Source: Hyphomicrobium sp. NDB2Meth4
Lineage (GTDB): Bacteria > Pseudomonadota > Alphaproteobacteria > Rhizobiales > Hyphomicrobiaceae
Length of the DNA stretch: 64,000 nt
Assembly (NCBI RefSeq): GCF_900117445.1
Contig: NZ_FPEJ01000009.1
Coordinates: 124,001-188,000, forward strand
Direction: 5' to 3'
A model generated the notes under the pieces. That model searched no databases. It had not been told where the DNA came from and was given only the letters and a program-made list of their open reading frames with translations. Positions within the stretch are counted from its first letter, which is position 1. Every line of letters begins with the position of its first letter. Positions 2,697 through 8,248 of the stretch are shown here, piece after piece. The position numbers and the translations under genes were made by a program.

Positions 2697-3623
2697 TCAA
2701 CGCGTCATGCCTGCCGTCTGAGTGGCGGTTAGGGCGGCCGCCTCGGCTGCTGTCGGGGTGGGCACGGGCGCTCCGGACAGGGCCGTGGCCATTGGAACGG
2801 TGTTGAGCAGGCCGAGCCGCTCGCGGGTGCCCGTGGCGAACACGAGGGTTACGGCGCGGCGGTTCTGGGCGCGGCAGTCGGTGTCGGCGCAGGTGGCGAT
2901 GCGGACGGAGCGGCCCAGCGGGACGATGGCGATGCGGCTCGGCTCGACGCCTTCCTCGATCAGGCGCTGGCGAACGGCCTCGGCGCGACGCTGAGACAGA
3001 GCGACGTTGTCCTGCTCGCTGCCCGGCTCGTCGGCGTGGCCTTCGATAGCCGCTTCGAACTCGTGCCAGCGCATGAGCCAGTGCGCCTGTGCGTCGAGCG
3101 CTGAGCGCGCCCGCGATCCGAGTTCGGCGCTGCCCGGCGAAAAGAAGACGCGGTCGCCCGCCTCAATGCGCAGTTTCGACTGGATCGATGCGTTGCGGCG
3201 GAGCTCGCGATCCCATGCGGGTGCGCGCTGCTCGCCAGCCGCGGGCATGTCAGCCAGCGCCGGTAGCGAACCCGTCACGGTAATGGCGTCGAACGAATCG
3301 GTGTTGCGCGCCTCGACTGGCTCGCGCGCGTCGAGGTCGCCGAGCTGCTGGCGCGCGTTATCGGCTGCTTCGGTTCCCGGGAAGCGGGCGACGACCGATT
3401 CGAACGTTTGCCGCGCGTAATCGGGATGGCCACCAGCGAGCTTTTCGACACCATCGAGATAGAGTTCGGCGGCGCGCTGCTCGGCGTCGTAACCGGAGGT
3501 GGTGCGCCAGGAGAACGGATCGGCACGCAATGGTACGGACGAGGTGCCAGCGGCGATCATGAGAGCCATCACGAACACACAGCGTCCGGCTACGCTACAT
3601 TGTGCACGCATGGGCCACCGCAT
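2697..3623 (-). CDS. periplasmic TPR-like/OmpA-domain protein (second Pal-like protein)
   Basis: This 308-residue protein has a signal peptide (about 1-34, ending PLRA) and no lipobox Cys. A TPR-like stretch follows (about 40-100: AELYLDGVEKLAGGHPDYARQ), then an OmpA/Pal peptidoglycan-binding domain (about 155-270). The domain carries IEGHADEPGSEQDN and LSQRRAEAVRQRLIEEGV, the family signature for gripping diaminopimelate in peptidoglycan. The start at 3623 has a GAGGGG ribosome site. It sits between pal and cpoB, where the standard cluster has no gene. It resembles a CpoB-like repeat joined to a soluble Pal domain. It is separated from pal by a terminator, so it probably has its own promoter. 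Role inferred: a periplasmic peptidoglycan tether connected to Tol-Pal. Confidence 0.82.
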   Translation of the reverse strand: MRWPMRAQCSVAGRCVFVMALMIAAGTSSVPLRADPFSWRTTSGYDAEQRAAELYLDGVEKLAGGHPDYARQTFESVVARFPGTEAADNARQQLGDLDAREPVEARNTDSFDAITVTGSLPALADMPAAGEQRAPAWDRELRRNASIQSKLRIEAGDRVFFSPGSAELGSRARSALDAQAHWLMRWHEFEAAIEGHADEPGSEQDNVALSQRRAEAVRQRLIEEGVEPSRIAIVPLGRSVRIATCADTDCRAQNRRAVTLVFATGTRERLGLLNTVPMATALSGAPVPTPTAAEAAALTATQTAGMTR

Positions 3624-3770
3624 TGCATTCCCCTCGCCGCCAAATCTCTGAAATCGCGGCAATCATTGCTCAGGATTTGCGGCGATTCTTTGCTGTGTTG
3701 CGCGGTGGTGCGCAGAGCTGTGGAAGTGGGGCAGGACAGCCACAGCGTTCAATCCGGCGGCGCGGCACAA

Positions 3771-3801
3771 ACGAAAATCCCGCGGACGAAAGCCGCGGGA
3801 T
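3771..3801 (-). terminator. Rho-independent terminator of pal
   Basis: A perfect 9-bp stem (atcccgcgg / ccgcgggat, 3777-3785 and 3793-3801) has a 7-nt loop. Read on the minus strand it is followed by a T-rich tail (TTTTCGTTT). It lies 28 nt after the pal stop codon. Confidence 0.8.
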
Positions 3802-3828
3802 CAAACCGTCGAAGACTTTGATCGGAAA

Positions 3829-4338
3829 TCAGTTTCCGGCGGTGCGCGAGTTGAGCACCGTTTGTGCGCGGCGATTCTGCGACCAGCACGAGATGTCGTT
3901 ACACACCGCCACCGGGCGCTCCTTGCCGTAGGAGATGGTGCGCAGTCGGGCGCCATTGATGCCGTTCTGGGCGAGGAAGTTGCGCACTGTGGTAGCTCGG
4001 CGGGCGCCGAGAGCGATGTTGTATTCGCGCGTGCCGCGCTCGTCGGCGTGGCCCTCGATGGTGATCGTGTACTGCGGATACTGCTGTAGCCACTGCGCCT
4101 GCTTCTGCAGCGTCGCGGTGGCTTCCGGCGTCAGATCCGAGCTGTCGGTGGTGAAGTAGACGATGTCGCCGACGTTGACTGCGAAGTCGCGATGCGTGCC
4201 CGGCGTCACCGAGCCGTCGCGGCCCGTGAGCGACGAGTTTGGCTGGTTCTCGTTATTGGCGCAAGCGGCGACCAGACCACCCACAAGCAAGACCGCAAGT
4301 AGGCGCGCTGCGCGGGTGAACCAGGATGTCGTGGCCAT
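3829..4338 (-). CDS. pal: peptidoglycan-associated lipoprotein Pal
   Basis: Pal is the outer-membrane lipoprotein of the Tol-Pal complex. It binds peptidoglycan and, when released by TolB, concentrates at the division site. The protein has 169 residues, with a hydrophobic signal ending in lipobox LVAAC (acylated Cys about residue 26). Its OmpA domain contains ITIEGHADERGTREYN and LGARRATTVRNFL; the paired Cys in VCNDISCWSQNRRA are common in alphaproteobacterial Pal. The start at 4338 was chosen over the upstream ATG at 4398 because of the AAAGGGAT ribosome site and because it gives a normal signal peptide. It ends at a strong terminator. Confidence 0.95.
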   Translation of the reverse strand: MATTSWFTRAARLLAVLLVGGLVAACANNENQPNSSLTGRDGSVTPGTHRDFAVNVGDIVYFTTDSSDLTPEATATLQKQAQWLQQYPQYTITIEGHADERGTREYNIALGARRATTVRNFLAQNGINGARLRTISYGKERPVAVCNDISCWSQNRRAQTVLNSRTAGN

Positions 4339-4812
4339 GCAAATCCCTTTCGTCGCCCACTGATCAACGTAACGTCTGAAGCGCGGCGACTGTTTCATCT
4401 CGATGAGGAGTTAGCGTGCCGCTCGTACGAAAATGTGGCCGCTTATCCGCTTCATCAGGACCTTTGTGCGATTCGTCGCCCGGAAGGACCTGAATGCAAT
4501 CATTATCCGGTGCAAAGAAACCGCGCGCAGCGACCAAAGGACCCGGTGTGGCGCTGCTGCACCGCAGCTATGCCACACGTGCAAGCCTCGCTTGCAGAGC
4601 AGACGCCGGCACGTCCTGTGGTGTCGTCGGGGATCGCGTCGAGCAACGCTCGATGGGCGGCGAATCAATCGCACCTGCCCGGCTGAAATCCGAGATGCGC
4701 TCGGCTGCCCTATCGAGGCGCCCGGTGCGCCGAGCGTGCCGGCGGCCTGATTAGCGAATCAATCGGCGGCGTGATGGGTGGAGACGAAGCAAAACGATAC
4801 GCCAGAAACGAT
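4339..4812. other. pal upstream region, no convincing gene
   Basis: About 470 bases lie between the pal start and the terminator of the lipoprotein cluster. Overlapping open frames (for example 4433-4750 on the plus strand) have arginine-rich, low-complexity products typical of GC-rich noncoding DNA, and no ribosome site. The stretch must hold the pal promoter, but I cannot point to a clear -35/-10 pair. Confidence 0.4.
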
Positions 4813-4853
4813 CAGGGCCGAGACCGACACACGAAGTGTCGATCTCGGCCCTG
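4813..4853 (-). terminator. hairpin terminator after the small-lipoprotein cluster
   Basis: A long inverted repeat has an 11-bp outer stem (cagggccgaga / tctcggccctg) and a 5-bp inner stem (gacac / gtgtc) closed on the minus strand by a TTCG-type loop. It lies 43 nt beyond the stop of the last small lipoprotein gene. The tail is only moderately T-rich (ATCGTTTCTG), so it may act as a terminator or as a 3' stabiliser. Confidence 0.6.
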
Positions 4854-4895
4854 TAGATCGGTCTTCCCAGCGAGACGTGCCAGGAAGCTAGCTGT

Positions 4896-5021
4896 TTAGC
4901 GCACCGACTGCGTCGAAGCCGGAACGTCGGCGCCGAGCTTCAGCGGAGCGGGCTCCTCGCGGCGGCAAGCGCCGAGAGCAACAGCAGCGGCAACGGCCGC
5001 GATCAGGATGGCCCCCTTCAT
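4896..5021 (-). CDS. small lipoprotein, tandem copy 1 (41 aa)
   Basis: A 41-residue open frame with an AGGAG ribosome site correctly spaced before its ATG. A hydrophobic Ala/Val-rich signal (MKGAILIAAVAAAVA) ends at lipobox LGAC. The mature part would be a 23-residue lipopeptide starting CRREEPAPLKLGADVPAS. The core LGACRREEPAPLKLGAD is identical in the next two genes, which is strong evidence that all three are translated. I do not recognise the family. The position between tolB and pal suggests a link to the envelope or Tol-Pal, but that is inference. Confidence 0.8.
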   Translation of the reverse strand: MKGAILIAAVAAAVALGACRREEPAPLKLGADVPASTQSVR

Positions 5022-5067
5022 CGTCGTATCTCCTAAAAAGTTTGTCCCCCTCGACTAAGCGTGATGC

Positions 5068-5187
5068 TTAGCGAGCAACTTCCGTGGTCATGTCAGCGCC
5101 GAGCTTCAGCGGAGCAGGCTCTTCACGACGGCAAGCGCCCAGAGCAACAGCAGCGACGACGACGGCGAGCACGATTGCACTCTTCAT
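5068..5187 (-). CDS. small lipoprotein, tandem copy 2 (39 aa)
   Basis: A 39-residue product with signal MKSAIVLAVVVAAVA, lipobox LGAC and the invariant core RREEPAPLKLGAD. It ends in a short divergent tail, MTTEVAR. It has its own AGAAAATG-type leader containing AGGAG. Gaps to its neighbours are 46 and 41 nt, so the three genes probably form one transcript. The mature peptide is about 21 residues with an acylated N-terminal Cys followed by two Arg. Arg at +2 would fit sorting to the outer membrane if the Lol rule known from enterics (Asp at +2 keeps a lipoprotein inside) holds here. Confidence 0.8.
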   Translation of the reverse strand: MKSAIVLAVVVAAVALGACRREEPAPLKLGADMTTEVAR

Positions 5188-5228
5188 AGCATTTTCTCCT
5201 AATGTTGTCCTGGCCTTGCCGCCTGCTC

Positions 5229-5363
5229 TTAGCGAGCGGGCTGCGTAGCGGCAGGCAGATCAGCGCCCAGTTTCAGCGGCGCGGGCTCTTCACGACGGCA
5301 CGCGCCCAGAGCAACGGCCGCAACCACTGCTGACAAAACGATCAGCCCCTTAAAACCCTGCAT
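5229..5363 (-). CDS. small lipoprotein, tandem copy 3 (44 aa)
   Basis: A 44-residue product, first in the transcript, with an AGGAG ribosome site before the ATG at 5363. The signal is slightly longer (MQGFKGLIVLSAVVAAVA), followed by lipobox LGAC and the same RREEPAPLKLGAD core; the tail is LPAATQPAR. Copies 1 and 3 share more of the tail (xPAxTQ) than copy 2. Synonymous codons differ between the copies while the core amino acids stay the same, which points to selection on the peptide rather than a very recent DNA duplication. Confidence 0.8.
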   Translation of the reverse strand: MQGFKGLIVLSAVVAAVALGACRREEPAPLKLGADLPAATQPAR

Positions 5364-5636
5364 GGTCTCATCTCCTGATGCTTTATCGGCACTAGCCATA
5401 TACTGGGGTACTTGCGCGGCTCGACTTGATCAAGAACAGAGGCGTTTAGCCCTCAGTTTTCCAAGTCGGCAGATGCGAAAATGCAACTGCGTTCCGCGGG
5501 GTTCTCAGCGTCTGACTGGGTCCGATGGTCCTCACCGAAAAAGCCCGAATTTACGCGGTAAACTCGCCCCTTCGGTGCCGAGGCGTCTGGGCATCATTGA
5601 TGCTCGGGGTTAGTTAATTTCAGGTTAAACGGTGTT
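5364..5636. other. upstream region of the small-lipoprotein cluster
   Basis: 273 bases between the tolB stop and the first small-lipoprotein gene. They must carry that cluster's promoter unless it is read through from tolB. I see no clear consensus promoter and no strong terminator after tolB. Confidence 0.35.
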
Positions 5637-7121
5637 TCAATTCAGGAGCGGCGACCATGCGGGATCGGACGCGAAGGCCGGCGTCTTGATCACGCGCTCG
5701 TTGTAGCCGGTCAAATCGATGGAATAGATTCGCGGACCGCCCGTCGGGCCCTGCGATTCGCGGAAGAACATCAACACGCGGCCGTTGGGTGCCCAGGTGG
5801 GGCCCTCGTTGTGGTAGCCCTCGGTGAGGATGCGCTCGCCGGAGCCGTCAGGGCGCATTACGCCGATGAGGAATCGGCCACCGAGCTGCTTGGTGAAGGC
5901 GATGTAGTCGCCGCGCGGGGACCAGACGGGCGTCGAATAGGAGCCCTGTCCCTGGCTGATGCGGTGGGCGGCGGACCCGTCCGAATTCATCACATAGATC
6001 TGCTGTGAGCGGTCGCGGTCGGATTCGAACACGACCTGACGTCCATCGGGCGAATAGCTCGGGCTGGTATCGATGGCGAGGCCCTGGGTGAGCTGGCGCC
6101 GCTGGCGCGTTCTCAGGTCCATCTCATAGATGGCCGAGTTGCCGCCCTCCTGCAGACTGAGAATCACGCGCTGGCCATCGGGCGAGAAGCGCGGCGCGAA
6201 GGTCATGCCGGGGAAATCGCCGACCGTTTCGCGCTGGCCGGTCTCAAGATTCATAAGGAAGACGCGCGGCGAGCCGCCGCCGTACGACATGAAGGTGATT
6301 TCCTGGTTGGTCGGCGAGAAGCGTGGCGTGAGCACGAGCTCCTGGCCCTTGCTCAACAGGCGGACGTTGAAGCCGTCCTGGTCCATGATGGCGAGGCGCT
6401 TGATGCGGCGCTCTTTCGGACCGGTCTCATCGATGAATACGACGCGAGTATCGAAATAGCCCGACTCGCCGGTGAGTTGCTTATAGACCTGATCTGCGAT
6501 GATGTGGCCGACGCGCCGCCAGTTCTGCGAGTTGGTGGCGAATCGCTGGCCGGCGAGCTGGCGTCCGGTCGCTACGTCCCAGAGGCGGAACTGAGCGACG
6601 ATGCGGCCGTCGGCGCTGCGCCCGACGTCGCCCACCACGAGTGCATCGGCCCTGATGGCGCGCCAGTCGGGGAAGCGAGGGGCGGCGTTTACGTCGCGCA
6701 CCTGTTCGAGAAAGGAGCCGCGGTCGAGCGGCTCAAACAGACCCGAGTTGCCGAGGTCCGCGGTGACGACCTCGGCGATATCGGCGGCGAGCTTCTGGTC
6801 GGGGCCAAGGAAATAGGGAATCGCAATCGGAATCGGCGCGATGGTGCCCTGCGTCTGGCGACCCTGCAGACCACCGGCGCCGCTGCCACCGGAAAGACCG
6901 CCGCCGCCCGGAGGGGCGGAGGAACCGCCCTGGAACTCGCGCAACTGAGCGTCGAGTCCGCCGCCATCAGAGGGGCCTTTATAGCTGTCGTCGGGACGTT
7001 GCGCGGAGGCCGGCGTCAGAGAAGCACTGGCGAGGAGTGCGGCGAGCACACCGAACAGCATCGTCCGCCAAGACCTGGCTTTGCGCGCATCCGCTACCAT
7101 TCGTCCGTTCCCATCGTGCAT
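5637..7121 (-). CDS. tolB: Tol-Pal system beta-propeller protein TolB
   Basis: Periplasmic TolB binds Pal and TolA and controls Pal mobility. The protein has a signal peptide (hydrophobic [15 protein letters not shown], cleavage near ASA-Q) and an unusually Gly-rich linker (about 45-90). The TolB N-terminal domain (about 95-220) is followed by PD40/WD40-like propeller repeats (about 230-490) such as [23 protein letters not shown] and [11 protein letters not shown]. The start could be the ATG at 7121 (GAGGAT upstream), at 7100, or at 7061; the last would still give a signal peptide. It follows tolA by about 60 nt in the tolQRAB run. Confidence 0.95.
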
Positions 7122-7183
7122 GTGGCTCTGATCCTCTGCCCTTTCCGGGGCTCCTTAGCACCGAATTGCGCCCGTGCGCATAC

Positions 7184-8248
7184 CTAGCGCTGTACCAATC
7201 CTAAGATGACGGGCCAATCAAACGCCCAAGTGACCGTGCTCCAGGCTCCATACATGTCGGGCGGAAGCTGGAACGGGGCACATTGCTTGATCGCACGGAC
7301 CGAAGCGTCGGCGGCGATAAGAAACAGCGGCGTGTTCTGGCGATTGATTACGACGGGCTCGCCGTTGAGCGAACCATCCTGATTGAGCTGAAAGCGCACG
7401 TTGACGACCGGCGTGTCGGGGCCGCCGCCGCCGCCGGGAAGGCGCGCGCATGGCTCCAGCTGCCGGTTGATCATGGACAGGAGAAGATCCTGCTGGCGCG
7501 CGGACAAGACCGTGTCGTGTCCCTGCCGCTCGCCTGCCGTCGGCCCCTCGTAATCGGTGGGCTTGGTGGGCGGCGTCGACGACTTGGGAGCGCCGCGCTT
7601 GTCGGGCGTCTTGTCGAGCAGAGCGGCGATCTTGTCGGCGTCGAACTTGCTCTTCTCGCGCTGCTTGCGCTTCTCCTCGGCAAGCTTGCGCTTCTTCTCC
7701 TCGGCCTTCTTCTTGGCCTCGAGCTTCTTTTTCTCCTCGGCCTTTTTCTTCGCCTCTTCCTTCTTCTTTTCCTCGGCCTTCTTCTTTTCCTCTTCGGCCT
7801 TGCGCTCCTGCTCGAGCTTCTCCTCGAGCTTCTTCTTCTCGTCGAGCGTCGGGCCAGGCTCCGGCGTCGGCTCGGGCGGAGCGGCCGCTAGCTTTTCGGC
7901 GATCGGGTCTTTCTTCGGCTCGGGCGGCGGCTCGGCCTTTTTCGGCTCGCTCTTTTCAGGCTCGGGCGGCGGCGGTTCGGCAGCCGGGGGCGGCGCGACG
8001 ACCGGATTGGGCTTGTCGGCTTCCTTCTTGGAAGTCTCCTCGGGCGGAGGCTCCTCCTTGGCTTTGGCTTCAAGCTGCTTGGCGTTCGGATCGCCCTGCT
8101 TCAGGCGCGTCAGCTCGGACGGCGTGACGATGGTCGCCTCGATGGGGATCACGGTCGGCAAGTCCAGCGGCTGCTCGTGGAAGGAGAGCAGCGCGTAGGC
8201 CAACAGCAGTGCGTGACCGATAAATGAGGTGATGAACCCGCGGTACAC
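7184..8248 (-). CDS. tolA: cell envelope protein TolA
   Basis: TolA is the inner-membrane stalk that carries energy from TolQR to TolB/Pal. It has an N-terminal membrane helix (about 8-24). A Pro/Glu/Lys-rich region follows (about 60-125), then a long Lys/Glu/Ala helical rod (about 135-215) and a C-terminal domain (about 255-354) with VVNVRFQLNQDGSLNGEPVV, the TonB-like fold of TolA III. The start is GTG at 8248. The length (354 aa) is normal. A 180-base gap separates it from tolR. Confidence 0.95.
   Translation of the reverse strand: MYRGFITSFIGHALLLAYALLSFHEQPLDLPTVIPIEATIVTPSELTRLKQGDPNAKQLEAKAKEEPPPEETSKKEADKPNPVVAPPPAAEPPPPEPEKSEPKKAEPPPEPKKDPIAEKLAAAPPEPTPEPGPTLDEKKKLEEKLEQERKAEEEKKKAEEKKKEEAKKKAEEKKKLEAKKKAEEKKRKLAEEKRKQREKSKFDADKIAALLDKTPDKRGAPKSSTPPTKPTDYEGPTAGERQGHDTVLSARQQDLLLSMINRQLEPCARLPGGGGGPDTPVVNVRFQLNQDGSLNGEPVVINRQNTPLFLIAADASVRAIKQCAPFQLPPDMYGAWSTVTWAFDWPVILGLVQR

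Follow-up and report, generated by a model that had tools for sequence, protein, structure and literature searches.

A family of small lipoproteins with co-evolving tandem copies beside tolB in Hyphomicrobiaceae

Three very short genes in a row, each with the features of a lipoprotein gene, lie between tolB and pal in the 4.08-Mb genome of Hyphomicrobium sp. NDB2Meth4. Their presence raises the questions of whether these genes are conserved, why their predicted products share a single core sequence, and what that core might do. We addressed these questions in the window, by which we mean the whole 64,000-nucleotide stretch of DNA that was analysed, and in related genomes.

Three tandem genes and their predicted products

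The open reading frames of the window bear out the original prediction of three tandem minus-strand genes of 41, 39 and 44 codons, each with an AGGAG at a proper distance, located between tolB and pal (Table 1). Here we take the upstream neighbour to be tolB and the downstream neighbour to be pal; both names are presumed. For the first copy our list of reading frames starts with a longer, 56-residue reading at position 5399, and the ATG that has a Shine-Dalgarno sequence gives the 44-residue product. The AGGAG lies 8 nt 5' of the ATG in all three copies, and the copies are spaced 41 and 46 nt apart.

Table 1. Features of the locus and neighbours of distant paralogues elsewhere
Feature	Position	Strand	Remarks
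tolB, upstream neighbour (name presumed)	5637..7121	-	ORF; matches in 57/61 genomes of the order
Conserved boxes GTTGCATTTTCGCATC and TTGGAAAAC	5456..5487	-	box A and GGAAAA; counts in text
Promoter-like element CTTGAT-N17-GTACCC	5406..5434	-	conserved across upstream regions
First-copy lipoprotein gene	5229..5363	-	44-aa ORF from ATG; AGGAG at 5376-5372; predicted mature peptide CRREEPAPLKLGADLPAATQPAR
Second-copy lipoprotein gene	5068..5187	-	39-aa ORF; AGGAG at 5200-5196; predicted mature peptide CRREEPAPLKLGADMTTEVAR
Third-copy lipoprotein gene	4896..5021	-	41-aa ORF; AGGAG at 5034-5030; predicted mature peptide CRREEPAPLKLGADVPASTQSVR
Terminator-like hairpin after last copy	4813..4853	-	18-pair stem, weak T tract
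pal, downstream neighbour (name presumed)	3829..4398	-	PF00691 OmpA domain, 1.2e-22
TonB_C-type gene tail to tail with distant paralogue (CRRE..Y..PMKLG)	L137:6521-7591, L139:6186-7241, L140:6173-7147, L141:6468-7529	all -	
YkuD gene back to back with paralogue of form CRREVPEPNGLGAKD	L126:1810-2208, L128:5290-5766, L129:2070-2516	all -	

All three products have a basic start, a hydrophobic stretch and a lipobox L-[GS]-A-C, which together we judged by eye to be a lipoprotein signal, and the mature peptides would be 21-24 residues long. The common core that had been predicted is indeed identical in all three copies but is longer than first stated, forming a 21-residue block (AAVALGACRREEPAPLKLGAD) to either side of which the starts and tails differ. 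In an alignment of 27 members, a set of our own choosing that also served for family-profile searches, the residues A, C, R, E, P, K, L and G are invariant, as are the 'AC' of the lipobox and a C-terminal R; at loci outside these 27 the C-terminal residue is H, Q, K, E or N. Many relatives carry an MQGxKGLI-type signal on their first copies, and the second and third window copies also have relatives in genome searches. A structure model of the first copy contains a helix at residues 2-24 only, the remainder being unstructured and of low confidence (pLDDT by block: 72, 57, 51).

The minus strand also encodes, at 2697-3662 between pal and the next gene, a protein of 321 residues whose OmpA domain spans residues 173-268 (PF00691, 5.9e-17) and whose N-terminal part appears repeat-like by eye. 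This is the second OmpA-domain protein of the cluster, and it is 39% identical to Pal over that domain.

Codon comparison between the copies agrees with the earlier statement that codon choice varies while the core protein stays constant. Selection on the peptides had also been proposed, and synonymous and nonsynonymous rates are unequal in the direction of purifying selection, with pairwise dN/dS between 0.20 and 0.50 across the segments: signals have 0.20 in first and 0.23 in last copies, cores 0.27 and 0.34, and tails 0.42 and 0.50. The signal peptide (5298-5363 in the window, and its relatives) is normally removed, yet by dN/dS it is more conserved than the mature tail.

Codon use gives a hint, in one genome, that the lipoprotein genes may be highly expressed. 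The reference comprised 23 genes of the ribosomal protein cluster; as background we took 226 genes that a codon score had called within 264 kb of this genome. By a ratio score of ribosomal to background codon use, the three genes taken together exceed all 226 background genes; individually, the third and second copies exceed every first-42-codon stretch of the 226 and the first copy all but 6%, while 19% of background segments matched to the first copy in length score higher than it does. The codon adaptation index is 0.558 (SD 0.080) in the background genes and 0.692 (SD 0.040) in the ribosomal ones; copies one, two and three score 0.489, 0.604 and 0.712. Draws of the same peptide from background codons reach the index of copy three in 2.6% of cases, of copy two in 37% and of copy one in 77%. 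Because this index is raised for only one copy of the three, we make no firm claim of high expression.

Spread, genomic place and transcription unit

With one copy as query and E up to 0.01, matches were found in 28 of 40 genomes, namely the genome itself, all 23 others of the same family and 4 of 16 from other families. A profile search matched 97 of 103 Hyphomicrobiaceae genomes (own included), 75 of the 76 family genomes at 90% completeness and at most 5% contamination, and 69 of 397 genomes of the order (own included); these counts are circular for some genomes, since the 23 rows of the profile come partly from genomes that were searched. Conservation in relatives on this scale (28/40; 97/103) excludes chance as the source of these reading frames. 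A class sample of 385 genomes, few of them members of the order, contained three short partial matches outside the order, which span 24-32 of 45 positions, lie within frames 76-197 residues long, and which we treated as chance matches to the signal and lipobox. Downstream of tolB in other families of the order we observed two diverged relatives with CRERHEPLK cores (L175 and L179), which suggest that the family is wider than the profile shows. A plasmid search yielded no DNA match.

To place the genes in their genomic context we used a peptide-pattern scan of named genomes, which found 82 loci, 80 of them kept; 59 of the 80 are labelled Hyphomicrobium, Filomicrobium or Hyphomicrobiaceae, and loci here, named or other, are places rather than genomes, some genomes contributing two. 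Homologues do occupy the same locus in relatives: 72 of the 80 adjoin tolB and/or pal, with 58 flanked by both, 11 by tolB only and 3 by pal only (often at contig ends), leaving 8 with neither. The 58 loci with both neighbours carry two copies in 49 cases, one in 5 and three in 4, and a single copy occurs at 14 of 55 other loci with both neighbours, a set that includes repeats of one place. Among the 30 tolB loci fetched from the order, being those with the best TolB scores of 57 matches, such a gene follows tolB in 14, and none was seen after tolB in 16. Where pal was seen, the tolB-pal gap measures 557-1242 bases in 10 loci with the gene versus 52-267 in 14 without, gap lengths that identify the lipoprotein genes as a unit added between tolB and pal.

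The location inside the tol-pal cluster thus stands as first described, but the genes look like a separate transcription unit. Between tolB and the first copy lies a conserved block comprising GTGGCATTTTCGCATC, GGAAAAC and a CTTGAT that precedes GGTACCC, or a similar sequence, by a fixed distance. Of 87 distinct upstream regions, 84 contain CTTGA[TA], 64 box A and 66 GGAAAA; the corresponding counts in shuffles are 9.9, 0.0 and 4.5. The patterns were composed after viewing the sequences, and the controls were mononucleotide shuffles. The spaced pattern of CTTGAN and G[GAT]TA is matched by 65 of the 87 regions and not by the other 22; in 64 of these 65 the two lie at a distance of 16. These elements are absent from 14 of 14 tolB-pal gaps lacking the genes, except for GGAAAA in two.

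We read CTTGAT-N17-GTACCC as a putative promoter, of which the window copy is the sole exact match in the genome; a sigma-70 scan found no promoter. Allowing two mismatches gives 127 places against 130 for the reversed pattern, so that there is no excess to indicate a regulon. The CenR box TGA-N8-TGA, as given in PMC9275681, was compared with the upstream block by eye and not retained. A stem-loop just 5' of the first Shine-Dalgarno sequence, once thought to covary, turned out to be mostly unvaried, and broken in some, across the 26 of 87 regions aligned.

A terminator-like hairpin follows the last copy (Table 1). It is one of four such sites in 3700-7200, where shuffles give 2.6, and the 111 nt around it fold with a z of -8.05. 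Of 87 loci, 79 have a region after the last copy that is more stably folded, by 2 SD, than its shuffles, and TTTT follows the hairpin in 66 of the 87. The window hairpin is unique in the genome and is therefore not a dispersed repeat. An Rfam search of 3500-7500 returned one sub-threshold match, which lies elsewhere (3770-3812) and was rejected. The conserved upstream block and the hairpin after the last copy together suggest that the lipoprotein genes form an operon of their own. According to PMC9275681, tolQRAB is transcribed separately from pal-cpoB in other alphaproteobacteria.

Cores of the tandem copies change in step within genomes

We compared first and last copies in 68 distinct loci with at least two copies, leaving the middle copy of three-copy loci out of the identity, tree, branch-change, same-codon and one-residue-pair analyses. 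Repeat loci were removed only where the ends of the first two copies were identical; close relatives thus remain in the set, and pair counts are not independent. Core identity between first and last copies is 0.95 within a genome versus 0.72 between genomes with other cores, and 2000 permutations reach a maximum of 0.79. Some loci do have unlike cores, such as CRREEHHAPMKL paired with CRKEVGHEPMKL. For the signals, identity between genomes is 0.67 (A-A) and 0.72 (B-B), while A-B identity is 0.62 within genomes and 0.56 across them; tail identity is 0.62 within a genome versus 0.56 between first copies of different genomes. Signals and core codons track orthology, and the mature core C-R-R-E-x(2,3)-P-[ML]-K-L tracks the genome.

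The changes themselves fall on the same branches. On a TolB tree of 65 loci (three of the 68 were dropped, their TolB piece being under 200 residues), Fitch parsimony counts 44 changes in the cores of first copies and 47 in those of last copies, of which 28 are common to branch and column in both and 25 are identical, compared with a mean of 6.4 and a maximum of 13 in 2000 null draws. Gain or loss of one core residue coincides in both copies four times. At core position 3 (R/K), the single change in first copies and the six in last copies never coincide. The three columns after the core (GAD) coincide 4 times versus 2.4 expected, and tail changes coincide 26 times versus 19.9 expected, with a null maximum of 33. 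For 213 pairs of loci whose first-copy cores differ by one residue, taken only where one member has like copies, the last copy has the same change in 167, no change in 1 and another change in 45. Copies within a genome thus tend to co-evolve at the amino-acid level.

Like cores could instead be the product of gene conversion or fresh tandem duplication, in which case their sameness would be uninformative on function. The tandem arrangement, with copies 41 and 46 nt apart, is compatible with such events, the tails are slightly more alike within genomes, and whole-gene conversion or duplication has taken place in L008/L063 at least, the two copies there being a single protein with an MKGAI signal. 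The codons of the cores point the other way. At loci whose two cores are the same peptide (eight core classes), the fraction of same codons is 0.81 for A-A and 0.78 for B-B, against 0.55 for A-B within a genome and 0.54 across genomes. Between the window locus (L001) and L070, both of one genus, an Ala/Val swap at mature position 7 affects all three copies, with codons GCG/GTG in the first copy, GCT/GTT in the second and GCT/GTT in the third. A further Ala/Val swap, between L063 and L064 (GCA/GTA and GCT/GTT), likewise kept the third base of each copy; here the shared signal type of both copies, and the single protein in L063, indicate that whole-gene conversion or duplication preceded the swap. 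Gene conversion could also explain L048/L045, where both copies end with the Val codon GTG, and L075/L076, with GTG in both copies. Signal peptides and core codons that keep orthology, together with a same-branch excess limited to the core, nonetheless weigh against this explanation, which we consider improbable. The codons argue against gene conversion as the sole cause of the alike cores, and rare, old conversion with synonymous traces later erased is possible.

Candidate functions and comparison with known lipoproteins

Copies that change in step suggest a shared binding partner. The reading that we prefer, at a probability of roughly 0.45, is that these are outer-membrane lipopeptides from an operon of their own whose copies dock on one common partner or on each other. 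The operon would yield one to three short lipoproteins, and signal peptidase II would cut each of them to a largely unfolded peptide of 21-24 residues, anchored through its acyl chains to the outer membrane on the periplasmic side. Sorting to the outer membrane would follow from the Arg after the Cys, by the E. coli rule. The segment C-R-R-E-x(2,3)-P-[ML]-K-L-G, right after the lipid, may then dock on a partner common to all copies, either an outer-membrane protein or the copies themselves, and when that interface changes every copy in the genome would tend to follow.

The partner might be sought in the neighbouring genes, since the lipoproteins had been proposed to titrate or tune Tol-Pal, an idea under which they could titrate TolB or Pal in the outer membrane. 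It is gene position that suggests this link: tolB and/or pal adjoin 72 of the 80 named loci, and a TonB_C-type gene adjoins four of the eight named loci elsewhere. In a comparison of 159 TolB and 56 Pal columns with the 22 co-change branches, a weak test of low power, no column was associated with the core changes once p-values were corrected, the best p being about 0.02. The genes also have their own upstream block and hairpin, and the 16 of 30 tolB loci with no such gene seen after tolB (from the best 30 of 57 TolB matches in the order) speak against this role as well; on balance we consider tuning of this system unlikely.

Distant paralogues at the loci elsewhere have envelope genes as neighbours, in small samples (Table 1). 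The TonB_C call is over Pfam's cut-off in two cases and just under it in a third, and the fourth gene is 80% identical to one of these; one of the four, L139, is the second-locus match in its genome (G016). The YkuD call comes from Pfam in two cases, the third gene being 77% identical. At the eighth locus, L111, neither a TonB_C-type nor a YkuD gene stands beside the lipoprotein gene.

The YkuD neighbours bear on a further proposal, that the peptides act as Lpp-like spacers which an L,D-transpeptidase would attach to peptidoglycan. Lpp, the Braun lipoprotein, is a small outer-membrane lipoprotein with a helical coiled-coil mature domain and a C-terminal Lys for peptidoglycan linkage. A distant paralogue lies back to back with a YkuD L,D-transpeptidase gene at three of the eight named loci elsewhere, but only one of those three paralogues has a C-terminal Lys. 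Unlike Lpp, the 27 aligned members end in Arg, none having a C-terminal Lys, the 21-24 residue mature part has no predicted helix or fold in the model of the first copy, and the Pfam LPP model matches none of them at E up to 1. We regard an Lpp-like role as very improbable.

A more specific form of our preferred reading can be offered tentatively, as a possibility that we consider somewhat unlikely. The lipopeptides may be a lineage-specific set that forms a mixed assembly, or coats one outer-membrane partner, through a code of about 12 residues after the cysteine. Parallel point substitutions would then have to alter this code in all paralogues at once, leaving each genome with one common version of it while the remainder of each peptide drifts. 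Hyphomicrobiaceae would thus have an outer-membrane building block of their own, within a class that is not expected to have Lpp. Were this true, nearly all Hyphomicrobiaceae examined (97/103) would carry an envelope component claimed by no Pfam or NCBIfam model. Changes made in parallel by the paralogues would amount to a natural genetic experiment in which positions 5, 6, 7 and 9 of the window's mature peptides likely contact the partner, and that partner could be found by pull-down or through genes changed on the same branches. Rhodobacter sphaeroides has no Lpp homologue, and in alphaproteobacteria peptidoglycan-bound beta-barrel proteins take the part of Lpp (both from PMC9275681); a new family of outer-membrane lipoproteins would for this reason bear on an open question.

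None of the three window copies scores above the cut-off of any Pfam or NCBIfam model, and PHROGs gave no match for them either. The best matches of the 27-member profile search, in which HMMER's filters drop most weak matches, were DUF4995 (E 0.001, 16 of 27 members) and the PG1828 family (NF050142; E 0.0017, 14 of 27), both of which lie over the signal and lipobox in the window copies, and TrbK (TIGR04359; E 0.023, 13 of 27). Two window copies score 18-19 bits against the cut-off of 50 for PG1828, and one scores 12.6 bits against 23 for TrbK. A PDB profile search gave two weak matches (E 0.039 and 0.44), both rejected. No paper on these lipoprotein genes was found in the open-licence literature searched.

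The entericidin A/B family (PF08085) is alike in architecture: a tiny lipoprotein with a signal, a lipobox and a short mature peptide. An alphaproteobacterial example, Atu8019 of Agrobacterium tumefaciens (53 residues, 32 of them mature), is a small lipoprotein found in outer-membrane vesicles, according to PMC7296081. In size and architecture the window's products would fit entericidin-like stress lipoproteins, as had been proposed, or vesicle lipoproteins of this kind, but PF08085 matches none of the 27 chosen members at E up to 1 and nothing at the locus, the conserved core is a different one, and the copies stand in tandem beside tolB. The best place for an entericidin in this genome, under the cut-off at E 0.027, is elsewhere (G000:C4:41638-41679, L199). 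We consider membership of this group quite improbable.

A closer parallel may be LptM (YifL; NF047847, PF13627), a small lipoprotein that docks on an outer-membrane machine, as described in PMC10567701. The likeness, which depends on the shared-partner reading being right, is that of a small docking lipoprotein; the differences are that only one of the 27 members matches NF047847 (E 0.23), that the core differs, and that the present genes come as several co-evolving copies. We conclude that these genes represent a new small-lipoprotein family whose tandem copies co-evolve. If the copies do share a partner, the products would resemble LptM most closely in their way of working, as small lipoproteins that dock, while not being members of that family.
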